Below are positions 235-16,095 of a DNA stretch of 39,808 bases, piece after piece. The stretch's first letter is position 1, and every line of letters starts with the position of its first letter. The notes under the pieces were generated by a model. The model saw only the letters and a list, made by a program, of their open reading frames with translations, searched no databases and had not been told where the DNA came from. A program made the translations under genes and the position numbers. Source of the DNA: Cryobacterium sp. (lineage in GTDB: Bacteria > Actinomycetota > Actinomycetes > Actinomycetales > Microbacteriaceae); NCBI GenBank assembly GCA_025465015.1, contig JAODMM010000199.1, positions 1 through 39,808 of the forward strand, written 5' to 3'.

Positions 235-666
235 ATGTTCCTCGGGACCTACGCCCCCAAGCTCGACGAGAAAGGGCGCATCATCCTGCCGGCGAAGTTC
301 AGGGATGAACTGGCGACGGGGGTGGTCATGACGCGGGGACAGGAACACTGCATCTACGTCTTCAGCACCCGAGAGTTCGAACAACTGCACGAGAAGATCC
401 GCCAGGCTCCCGTCACCAGTAAGCAAGCCCGCGACTCCCTGCGGGTCTTCCTCTCCGGAGCATCCGCAGAAGCGCCCGACAAGCAGAACAGGGTCACCAT
501 CCCGGCGAACCTTCGCGCGTACGCCGGCCTCGACCGGGACCTGACCGTCATCGGTGCGGGCAGTCGCGTGGAGATCTGGGACAGCGAGGCCTGGGACAAC
601 TACCTCAGCGAGCAGGAAGCATCGTTCGCAGCAACCACCGAGGAGGTGATTCCGGGACTCTTCTAG
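235..666 (+). CDS. mraZ: Transcriptional regulator MraZ
   Basis: ORF 229..666 begins GTG ATG ATG; SD-like GAGAAGGGG at 221-229 favours the ATG at 232 or 235. [26 protein letters not shown] and a second [13 protein letters not shown] repeat are typical of MraZ; first gene of dcw cluster. Confidence 0.95.
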
Positions 667-765
667 TCCTTGGCGCCTGACTCCCAGCCGTTCACTTCCC
701 TGACACACTTCCCCGGTGCCAGGCAAGAATGGATGGGGATCAGGACTCACGGGCTCCCCGGCACT

Positions 766-2382: not shown

Positions 2383-4161
2383 GTGGCGAGCACCAGAACA
2401 ACACACCGGCGCCGGGTCGTCGTCACCGTCATGGTCCTATTCGCGATCATCGCCGTGTTCGTCGTCAAACTGGTCGACATCCAGGTCGTCCGAGCCGAGA
2501 CTCTGAACGCCGACGCACTGGGGAACCGCTCCGTAGAAGACGAGATCTACGGGTCTCGCGGAGATATCCTGGCCTCCGACGGGACCGTCCTGGCTGGGAC
2601 TGTGATGCGTTACAACATCACGATGTCGCCCAAGCGGGCGGTGAAATTCACGCGCACAACCGATTCCGGCACCGAGAGTGTGAGTGTGGCTCAGGCCGCC
2701 GCCGAAATCGGCGGGCACACTGGCCAGACGCCCGAAGCCATCCTCGCCATCATCGCCTCCGCCCTGGCAGACAATCCTGACTCCGACTTCGCCTACGTGG
2801 CGAAGCAGGTCGACGTGGACGTGTTTCGCGCCGTTCAGGCGCTCGACATCCCCTGGATCTATTTCAAGAAGACTCCGAGCCGGGTCTATCCCAATGGCGC
2901 CGTAGCCGGGAACCTTGTCGGCTTCGTCTCCTCGGAGGGGGAGGCACAGGCGGGCCTCGAGCTTGACCAGGACGCTTGCGTGGCAAGCGCCAACGGCATG
3001 CGCACCTACGAGCGGGGTGGCGACGGCGTGCCGATCCCCGGTAGTTCCGTCACGATCAGCGAGGCCACCGACGGTGGCGACGTCATCACCACCATCGACC
3101 CCGATCTGCAATGGTTCGTACAGCAGGTCCTTGCCGAACAGGCTCAGGCCACGGGCGCGGCCTGGGGCACCGTGGTGGTGCAGGAGGCGAAGACCGGAAG
3201 GCTCCTCGCCGTCGCGGATTATCCCTCGGTCGACCCGAATAACGTCAACGGCACCGAGAACGCCGACGACCGTGGCTCCCGGGCGTTCACCGCCTCGTTC
3301 GAGCCAGGGTCGACGTTCAAGGCGCTCACCGCGGCCGCCGTCATTGACGCCGGGCTGGCCACACCGGGCAGCAAGATCGTTGCCCCTTTCCGCTACCTGC
3401 CCGAGAACGGAGCCAACATCAACGACAGTTCCGGGCACGGTGATGAGAACCTCACCCTCACCGGAGTTCTGATCGAATCGTCGAACACGGGAATGTCGAA
3501 GTTCGGTGAGATGCTCGACGACCGGCAGCGCTACGACTACATGACCAAGTTCGGCGTGGGCACGGCGACGGAGGCGGCCTTCCCGTCGGAAGACACCGGC
3601 ATCCTCCACCCATGGGAGGAATGGGACAACCAGACCCAGTACGCCACGATGTTCGGACAAGGCCTCACCACCACGGCGCTCCAGGTGGCCAGCATCTACC
3701 AGGCCATCGGCAACCAAGGCGTGCGGATGCCGGTGCAACTCGTCGCGGGATGCCGCCAGGCTGACGGGACTATTGTGAACCAGCCGTCTGCCGAGGGAAC
3801 CCAGGTCGTCAACGCGGACGCCGCACGGTCGACCGCGCAGATGCTCGAAATGGTCTACCAGCAGGGCTGGCTGGCCGATACGTGGAAGATTCCCGGCTAC
3901 CGCGTGGCCGCGAAGACGGGCACGGCACAGATGCCCGACGGCAACGGCGGTTACTCACGCGGCTATCTCGTGTCCGTGTCGGGGTTCGCTCCGGCGGACG
4001 ACGCGCAGTTCGTCGTTTCGGTGAGTCTCGCAGATCCTGTTAAAATGAATTCATCTGCCGCTTCGGCTCCGGTCTTCCAGAAGGTCATGAGCCAAGTGTT
4101 GAAGAAGTACCGGGCGGTCCCATCGGGTGCACCAGCGCCTGCCCTCCCTGCAACCTGGTAA
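2383..4161 (+). CDS. ftsI: Peptidoglycan D,D-transpeptidase FtsI (PBP3-type)
   Basis: N-terminal TM, PBP dimerisation region, transpeptidase motifs STFK, SSN and KTGTAQ; dcw position. Confidence 0.95.
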   Translation: MASTRTTHRRRVVVTVMVLFAIIAVFVVKLVDIQVVRAETLNADALGNRSVEDEIYGSRGDILASDGTVLAGTVMRYNITMSPKRAVKFTRTTDSGTESVSVAQAAAEIGGHTGQTPEAILAIIASALADNPDSDFAYVAKQVDVDVFRAVQALDIPWIYFKKTPSRVYPNGAVAGNLVGFVSSEGEAQAGLELDQDACVASANGMRTYERGGDGVPIPGSSVTISEATDGGDVITTIDPDLQWFVQQVLAEQAQATGAAWGTVVVQEAKTGRLLAVADYPSVDPNNVNGTENADDRGSRAFTASFEPGSTFKALTAAAVIDAGLATPGSKIVAPFRYLPENGANINDSSGHGDENLTLTGVLIESSNTGMSKFGEMLDDRQRYDYMTKFGVGTATEAAFPSEDTGILHPWEEWDNQTQYATMFGQGLTTTALQVASIYQAIGNQGVRMPVQLVAGCRQADGTIVNQPSAEGTQVVNADAARSTAQMLEMVYQQGWLADTWKIPGYRVAAKTGTAQMPDGNGGYSRGYLVSVSGFAPADDAQFVVSVSLADPVKMNSSAASAPVFQKVMSQVLKKYRAVPSGAPAPALPATW

Positions 4162-13552: not shown

Positions 13553-13626
13553 CTCCCGGCCTGGTTTCTCCCAAGCCCGGCATGGACAACCCGCGGGGCC
13601 AAGATAAGCCGGACCTTCGGGCATGA
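13549..13626 (+). CDS. Candidate 25-codon micro-ORF ([25 protein letters not shown]) joined by ATGA overlaps to murC and ftsQ
   Basis: ATG 13549 overlaps murC TGA (13550-13552); its TGA (13624-13626) overlaps ftsQ ATG (13623). No homology known to me; could be only a coupling device. Confidence 0.35.
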
Positions 13627-14765
13627 AGCGGCCCCAGGGCTTTGACCGGTCGCCTGGCGTACCGCCCGTACCGCCCGTACCGCCGATTGGAGGCGGGACG
13701 AGCGCAACGCCAAGCCGTCGAGGAACGGTCGCACCGCTCGCGGACGCAGCGACCGAGCCCATCACGGTGATCACCGTGACTCCGGACATCGCACCGGTAG
13801 CGTCGTTTCTGCCCGCCGCCGGACAGGGGGAAGGCGACCGAAAGAGCGTGGCGAAGGACGCGGCGAAGACGAATCCGAAGTTCTCTGGGAAGGAGCGCCG
13901 CGATACCTCCGGCGTGACTCCGTCGAAGGCTGCCAGCGACGAGGAAGCGGACGGGACGCTCTCGGCGACTGGTGCGGCCATGGCGAGCAGACCGCTCACC
14001 CCGCGCACGGCACGCAAGCAATTCCGGGCCGCTCGACGTGCCCGCAAGCAGTACGAGCGCGATGAGGTTCGACGCTTCACCTGGCGGGCGCGTCGGCGAC
14101 GGATGGCGTGGCTTACATCGGGTGGCGTGCTTGTCGCCCTCATCCTCTTCGTCGTCATCGGCGCCTACTCACCGCTCATGGCGCTTCGCACCATCGAGGT
14201 CGTTGGTTCCGAGCGGGTCTCTGCGGCTGAGATACAGTCAGCTCTCGCCGACCAGGTTGGAACCCCGTTGCCACTGGTCGATTTCGATGCAGTTAAAGCC
14301 GAACTCGCCACCTTCCCCCTCATCGCCAGCTATGTGACCGAGAGCCGGCCCCCGGGCACCCTTGTCATCCGGGTGGTCGAGCGCGTGCCGGTGGGGCTGG
14401 ACGCGTCCGCAACCGGGTTCGACCTCGACGACGCGGCCGGTGTGGTCATCTCACGAAGTGGCGAGCGGGTACCTGGATACCCGGTCATGGACGCGAAGAG
14501 TGGAACGGACAGTACGGGTTTCCGAGCGGCAGCCGAAGTCATCGACGCGCTGCCGGAGAACATCCGAAGTCAGCTGGACACGGCCACCGCCACGACTCGC
14601 GACGACGTCACGTTGGGCCTGGTGGGCGGGGCCCGCGTTGTCTGGGGCAGCGCCGAGAGGTCAGAGTACAAGGCTGTCGTCCTGGGCGCCCTCCTGGTGG
14701 GGCATCCGGCGGGCACGGTCGGGGAGTATGACGTCTCGTCGCCCGACAGCGCGGTCATCCGCTGA
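13623..14765 (+). CDS. ftsQ: Cell division protein FtsQ
   Basis: Long N-terminal cytoplasmic region, one TM, POTRA-like IEVVGSERVSAAEIQSAL, VVERVPVGL; position between murC and ftsZ. Confidence 0.9.
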   Translation: MKRPQGFDRSPGVPPVPPVPPIGGGTSATPSRRGTVAPLADAATEPITVITVTPDIAPVASFLPAAGQGEGDRKSVAKDAAKTNPKFSGKERRDTSGVTPSKAASDEEADGTLSATGAAMASRPLTPRTARKQFRAARRARKQYERDEVRRFTWRARRRRMAWLTSGGVLVALILFVVIGAYSPLMALRTIEVVGSERVSAAEIQSALADQVGTPLPLVDFDAVKAELATFPLIASYVTESRPPGTLVIRVVERVPVGLDASATGFDLDDAAGVVISRSGERVPGYPVMDAKSGTDSTGFRAAAEVIDALPENIRSQLDTATATTRDDVTLGLVGGARVVWGSAERSEYKAVVLGALLVGHPAGTVGEYDVSSPDSAVIR

Positions 14766-14818: not shown

Positions 14819-14859
14819 ATCGCCCATACCTTCGGAATCAGGAATTGCATACTCAGCAT

Positions 14860-14890
14860 AACTTTAAGCCTCCAGTTGAGGTTTAGGGTT
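14860..14890 (+). promoter_or_regulatory. ftsZ 5' leader hairpin (13-bp stem with 3 G-U, 5-nt loop)
   Basis: AACTTTAAGCCTC-CAGTT-GAGGTTTAGGGTT; ends 6 nt before GGAGG SD (14897-14901). Confidence 0.7.
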
Positions 14891-14907
14891 CCACCCGGAG
14901 GCCGGAC

Positions 14908-16095
14908 GTGTCAACAAATCAGAACTACCTAGCCGTCATCAAGGTTGTCGGAATCGGCGGGGGCGGCGTCAACGCCGTGAACCGCATGATCGAGCTCGGT
15001 CTGCGTGGAGTCGAGTTCATTGCAATCAACACGGATGCTCAGGCACTGTTGATGAGCGACGCTGACGTCAAGCTCGACGTCGGCCGCGATCTCACCCGCG
15101 GCCTTGGCGCTGGCGCCGATCCCGAAGTGGGCCGTCGTGCCGCTGAGGATCACGCCGAGGAGATCGAAGAAGCCCTGGCTGGGGCCGACATGGTCTTCGT
15201 CACCGCCGGCGAAGGCGGCGGCACGGGTACCGGCGGTGCTCCCGTCGTGGCTCGCATCGCGAAATCGATCGGTGCCCTCACCATCGGTGTCGTCACGAAA
15301 CCGTTCGGCTTCGAGGGCAAGCGCCGACAGGCGCAGGCCGAGACCGGCGTCGCCACCTTGAAGAACGAGGTCGACACCCTCATCGTCGTCCCGAACGACC
15401 GTCTGCTGGAGATCAGCGACCGCGGCATCAGCATGCTGGAGGCATTCTCCACCGCCGACCAGGTCCTCCTCGCTGGTGTGCAGGGCATCACCGACCTCAT
15501 CACAACGCCCGGGCTGATCAACCTCGACTTCGCCGACGTCAAGTCCGTCATGCAGGGGGCCGGATCGGCGCTCATGGGTATCGGTTCCTCTCGCGGCGCC
15601 GACCGAGCCATCAAGGCCGCTGAACTTGCCGTCGCCTCCCCGCTTCTCGAGGCGTCGATCGACGGCGCTCATGGCGTGCTGCTGTCGATCCAGGGTGGCT
15701 CCAACCTCGGTATCTTCGAGATCAACGACGCAGCCCGCCTGGTGCAGGAAGCCGTGCACCCCGAAGCGAACATCATTTTCGGTGCCGTCATCGACGACAC
15801 CCTCGGCGACGAGGTTCGGGTCACTGTCATCGCCGCCGGATTCGATGGGGGAGAACCGGGCGCCAAGCCTGCCGAGGTGCGCCGCTCCGACCTGGTGGCG
15901 GCCGGGATCGCGGCCGGTGCCAGCTCTGCCGCCGTCGGTTTCGGGGCGGAAGCCTCCGAACCGCGGTCGTATGCTGCGGCTGAAGCCACGGACACCTCGG
16001 TCTGGCAGCACGCCGACGCGGGCGCCGCGATCGTCGCCGACCCTGCGTTCGAGGATGAGTCTGACGACCTCGACATTCCCGATTTCCTGAAGTAA
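14908..16095 (+). CDS. ftsZ: Cell division GTPase FtsZ
   Basis: [30 protein letters not shown] tubulin signature, C-terminal [17 protein letters not shown] then GTG start. Confidence 0.98.

Follow-up and report, generated by a model that had tools for sequence, protein, structure and literature searches.

The division gene ftsZ of a Cryobacterium genome is preceded by an inverted repeat that could act either as an RNA hairpin in the ftsZ leader or as a symmetric site in the DNA, and we asked which of these it is. The repeat lies between ftsQ and ftsZ in the stretch of 39,808 nt that we analyzed (the window), and its last base is 17 nt before the ftsZ start codon (Table 1). It consists of a left arm, AACTTTAAGCCTC (14860-14872), a loop, CAGTT (14873-14877), and a right arm, GAGGTTTAGGGTT (14878-14890). 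A sequence-only reading of the locus had described a 13-pair hairpin, with 10 Watson-Crick and 3 G-U pairs and a loop of 5 nt, that stops 6 nt short of the GGAGG of ftsZ; this description proved accurate in sequence and coordinates. RNA folding formed all 13 pairs, with a minimum free energy of -14.0 kcal/mol for the 31-mer. We conclude below that 14860-14890 is very probably a double-stranded DNA operator of the activator FtsR, placed in the ftsZ promoter, rather than an RNA switch; this assignment draws on comparative sequence analysis.

Table 1. Annotated features around the inverted repeat upstream of ftsZ, in window coordinates
Feature	Position	Strand	Basis
ftsQ, gene upstream of the site	13623-14765	+	POTRA_1 and FtsQ_DivIB_C domains
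TACCTT, TANNNT (-10-like) box lying some 33 bp before the operator	14827-14832	+	leader column conservation
Block AGGAATTGCATACTCAGCAT, near-invariant within the genus and mostly retained by the family	14840-14859	+	leader alignment
Imperfect 31-bp dyad, predicted FtsR operator (the hairpin of the earlier reading)	14860-14890	+	class-wide conservation upstream of ftsZ; single site in the genome
AACTTTAAGCCTCCAGTTGAGGTTT, aligned gap-free to the published 25-bp FtsR motif	14860-14884	+	comparison with PMC6683498
GAGGTT, alternative candidate -10	14878-14883	+	19-bp spacing to the -35 position
TAGGGT, candidate -10 by the operator's 3' edge	14884-14889	+	column conservation; geometry of M. tuberculosis P1 and C. 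glutamicum cop1 (PMC6683498)
GGAGG, Shine-Dalgarno of ftsZ	14897-14901	+	sequence
ftsZ, GTG start	14908-16095	+	Tubulin/FtsZ GTPase (6.9e-47) and FtsZ_C (8.3e-33) domains

Results

The motif, rather than the stem, exceeds chance

First-order Markov simulations of the window gave about 1.2 stems of at least 13 pairs per strand (G-U included, loops of 3-8 nt), and the real plus strand holds one, at 14860-14890. Since random sequence of the same composition yields about one such stem, the hairpin alone is unremarkable; the 81-nt region around it folds with a weak z of -1.42. On the minus strand, a hairpin at 3067-3099 (15 pairs with G-U allowed, 3-nt loop) is longer than the stem upstream of ftsZ. 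No Rfam family matched at the hairpin locus; elsewhere, window positions 662-762 scored 53.1 bits with mraW RNA (RF01746), whose gathering score is 50. The sequence motif described below, allowing up to three mismatches, had an expectation of 0.00 in shuffled windows. Because of this expectation, together with a single occurrence in the genome and conservation throughout the class, it is the motif and not the stem that beats chance.

The repeat matches the published FtsR operator, and its genome encodes an FtsR orthologue

FtsR, known as Cg1631 in Corynebacterium glutamicum and Rv1828 in Mycobacterium tuberculosis, is a dimeric MerR-type activator of ftsZ (Kraxner 2019, PMC6683498). Its binding to the C. 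glutamicum ftsZ promoter was demonstrated by DNA affinity, ChAP-seq, and EMSA, and deletion of ftsR lowered ftsZ mRNA in that species (PMC6683498). The authors describe their 25-bp motif (AACtCTAAgcctAtGGTTGAGGtTt in M. tuberculosis, AACCCTAAAGTAAAGGTTGAGGGTA in C. glutamicum) as conserved in the ftsZ promoters of Actinobacteria that encode FtsR, at distances of 41 to 193 bp to the start codon (PMC6683498). Compared by eye, 14860-14884 is identical to the M. tuberculosis site at 21 of 25 bases, with no gaps. The two systems thus share the gene, the class of position, the motif, and an orthologous regulator adjoining a FHA/GarA-type gene. They differ in that the best symmetry at our locus is a 31-bp dyad centered at 14875, not the 25-bp register, which is offset by 3 bp from this center, a discrepancy that we count against the operator reading. 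The locus also departs from the published sites in its short distance to the start codon and in having CTCAGCAT where other families have the -35-like TTGACAT.

The genome that contains the window (2.54 Mb in 271 contigs, 91.6% complete) encodes an FtsR orthologue of 232 aa with a MerR_1 domain (L003:1405-2103). The best PDB match of its C-terminal effector domain is the Rv1828 structure 5YDC (5e-14). Here, ftsR is flanked by a GarA/OdhI-like FHA gene, directly upstream, and by a second MerR gene on its downstream side. The published cluster has the same order: odhI/garA precedes ftsR and, in C. glutamicum, a bifunctional nuclease gene separates ftsR from the second merR (PMC6683498). In contrast to that arrangement, no bifunctional nuclease gene stands between ftsR and the second MerR gene here; a gene of this kind is found on another contig (G000:C190, L289) than ftsR (G000:C6, L003). 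A whole-genome scan placed the operator motif at a single site, upstream of ftsZ, and a genome-wide search for other FtsR targets with up to three mismatches to the motif returned none.

The site is conserved across most of the class and tends to be lost together with FtsR

We gathered ftsZ leaders at the levels of genus, family, order, and class and built a position matrix iteratively; several loci that were read in an unexpected orientation were left out of the analysis. Part of the scored leaders served to train the matrix, so presence of the site in these is partly circular; many scored leaders and a set added later were outside the training. Through most of the class, ftsZ is preceded by an element of 31 bp that is dyad-symmetric around base 16 (window position 14875); the consensus outside Microbacteriaceae is TTGACAT-AACTATAACCCTCAACTTGAGGGTGAGGGTT. 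The most fixed columns of the element are the mirror pairs T11/A19, T5/A25, A7/T23, and C12/G18, as expected if each of two identical subunits recognizes the same bases. The distance between the site and the ftsZ start ranges from less than 20 to more than 170 nt across leaders, indicating that the site is not tied to the Shine-Dalgarno sequence.

Presence of FtsR was determined by translated search with the FtsR of the window's genome; 30 genomes were rechecked, with all candidates scored. The site was found in 71 of 81 FtsR-positive leaders versus 7 of 34 FtsR-negative ones, a trend with exceptions. Two families, f4 and f7, and several genera of a third, f35, yielded no FtsR orthologue in the translated search, and the site was likewise absent from f4 (0/10), f7 (0/10), and the FtsR-negative members of f35 (0/7), while all seven FtsR-positive members of f35 that were tested carried it. 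Six of the seven FtsR-negative genomes with a site are drafts of 150-970 contigs, from which the ftsR gene may be missing in the assembly; the seventh (G357, 30 contigs) is an unexplained exception. The ten FtsR-positive genomes below the site threshold comprise five from family f20, three from family f3, and two with weak sites. Five of the six f20 genomes (L192-L197) had no recognizable operator upstream of ftsZ, although FtsR orthologues are present. In f3 (L183, L187-L190), the leaders hold a palindrome that is built differently, of the AACTTCAAGT...ACTTGAGG type, which may represent an FtsR operator that diverged as the FtsR proteins did.

Variation across relatives fits a DNA dyad

The sequence-only reading had taken the G-U compatibility of all three departures from a perfect palindrome as a hint that an RNA structure is kept. 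Were pairing in RNA maintained, G-U would be expected to be tolerated and A-C avoided. Across 157 distinct sites, 210 G-U cells were seen versus 222 expected from column composition, and 79 A-C cells versus 81. For the eight pairs with strong symmetry, combinations that were not Watson-Crick comprised 24 G-U, 52 A-C, and 98 others, and the symmetric columns T11/A19, T5/A25, and A7/T23 are fixed in sequence rather than varying as pairs. The argument from G-U compatibility therefore fails among relatives: departures at these pairs are mostly unpairable and G-U is not enriched, a pattern that fits a dyad in DNA and not an RNA stem under selection. Two of the three G-U pairs in the window fall at positions where the genus prefers T in the left arm and G in the right, and for the first of these, T3/G27, the preference is found in most lineages.

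Coupling between the arms was measured by re-dealing the 3' arms among sites and recording the change in mean folding energy. There was no clear coupling of the arms beyond column composition in the genus (z -1.3) or in other Microbacteriaceae (z -0.9). A larger change was seen among the remaining members of the class (z -6.3), one that a co-evolving DNA dyad or shared ancestry can explain as well as RNA can. Within the genus, one species (L005) keeps the site with two mismatched stem pairs, and several others have a weakened stem of -7 to -9 kcal/mol.

Two observations lean toward RNA. Variation in the window's genus is mostly pairable (170 Watson-Crick, 45 G-U, 4 A-C, and 2 other). In addition, folding favors the sense strand over the antisense in 130 of the 157 sites (17/17 in the genus, 33/35 in other Microbacteriaceae, and 80/105 in the rest of the class). 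Such a strand bias is not predicted for a purely symmetric DNA site unless an additional asymmetric constraint is present, such as promoter elements; a promoter element in the right arm could be its cause.

Conserved promoter-like elements lie upstream of and within the dyad

The TANNNT box occurred 69 times at -32 to -34 in 73 Microbacteriaceae leaders and 112 times at -27 to -32, about 29 bp upstream of the operator, in 115 leaders of other families. In nearly every ftsZ leader of the class, then, its spacing to the FtsR site downstream of it is almost constant, with a shift of 4-5 bp in Microbacteriaceae. This box may be the -10 of an upstream ftsZ promoter with a start near 14839, in which case transcripts from that promoter would contain the hairpin. 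In the position adjoining the operator, other families have TTGACAT, a -35 consensus, and Microbacteriaceae have a degenerate hexamer within the block at 14840-14859. A simple scan found no sigma-70 consensus promoter.

The M. tuberculosis FtsR site is cited in PMC6683498 as lying between the -35 and -10 of P1, with P1 at -43. In most of the other families that we aligned, TTGACA abuts the operator, and a conserved nAnnnT follows 19 bp on, inside the site, or 25 bp on, at its 3' edge. Classical MerR-family promoters hold their dyad between -35 and -10 elements separated by a 19-20 bp spacer. The FtsR sites may resemble these in that the dyad would overlap a promoter and in the 19 bp between TTGACA and the internal nAnnnT of other families; they differ in that the FtsR dyad is longer and is centered downstream of the middle of the spacer, and FtsR has no known inducer.

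Discussion

The sequence-only reading had put RNA control first and had also named a protein-bound leader and overlap with a promoter. Of these, the evidence supports overlap with a promoter, in the form of a predicted FtsR operator in the DNA, and control of translation or mRNA stability by RNA is unsupported as the main function. By analogy with relatives, in which binding of FtsR and activation of ftsZ were demonstrated by others (PMC6683498), an FtsR dimer would sit on the operator with each subunit reading one arm, and bound FtsR would activate initiation at the promoter that overlaps it. FtsR-driven transcripts would then start just 3' of the operator and so be free of the hairpin. That FtsR binds this site in this species, that it activates rather than represses, and which -35 and -10 are used are presumed from these parallels.

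We weighed several other explanations against the FtsR operator. A cis-acting hairpin in the ftsZ leader, controlling translation or mRNA stability and kept for its RNA structure, would account for a stem in which every pair forms, for the pairable variation in the genus, and for the folding bias toward the sense strand, and the conserved upstream TANNNT box could yield transcripts that bear it. We nevertheless regard it as very unlikely, and reject it as the main selected feature on the G-U and arm-coupling tests: G-U is not above column expectation, departures at symmetric pairs are mostly unpairable, and the arms show no clear coupling in genus or family. The weakened stems of same-genus species, the variable distance to the start codon, the loss of the site where FtsR is lost, and the lack of an Rfam family at the locus argue in the same direction. 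An intrinsic terminator or a chance inverted repeat has next to no probability. Stems of this size do arise about once per window and strand; however, the site has no T-tract and received no terminator call, and class-wide conservation of the sequence already refutes both.

The 31 bp might also serve twice, as an FtsR operator in the DNA and as a functional hairpin beside the Shine-Dalgarno in transcripts that read through or start at the upstream promoter. Conservation of the upstream -10-like box, the strand bias in folding, and the placement of the hairpin 6 nt from GGAGG in this genus speak for such dual use. Against it, the folding bias amounts to a fixed column preference (T3 versus G27) that also holds for sites at a long distance from the start codon, and there is no sign of RNA-specific selection; we consider dual use unlikely. 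A more elaborate form, in which a promoter about 20 nt upstream supplies an RNA hairpin that lowers FtsZ translation, and FtsR switches between this hairpin-bearing leader and a short hairpin-free one, seems to us quite improbable.

As an FtsR operator, 14860-14890 is almost certainly an ordinary example of a known regulatory site, located here for the first time. Our literature search found no description of an FtsR operator of ftsZ for this genus, and the details that are new are the 31-bp dyad, the conserved upstream -10-like box, and the close approach of the site to the start codon. The assignment disposes of a misleading RNA-switch hypothesis and brings the ftsZ of the window into the FtsR regulon, and it suggests that a 31-bp dyad describes the operator better. 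Most of the class conserves a -10-like box ahead of the operator, which makes it worth asking at which ftsZ promoter FtsR acts, and the at least three groups in which regulator and site are jointly missing offer natural tests of the FtsR regulon.
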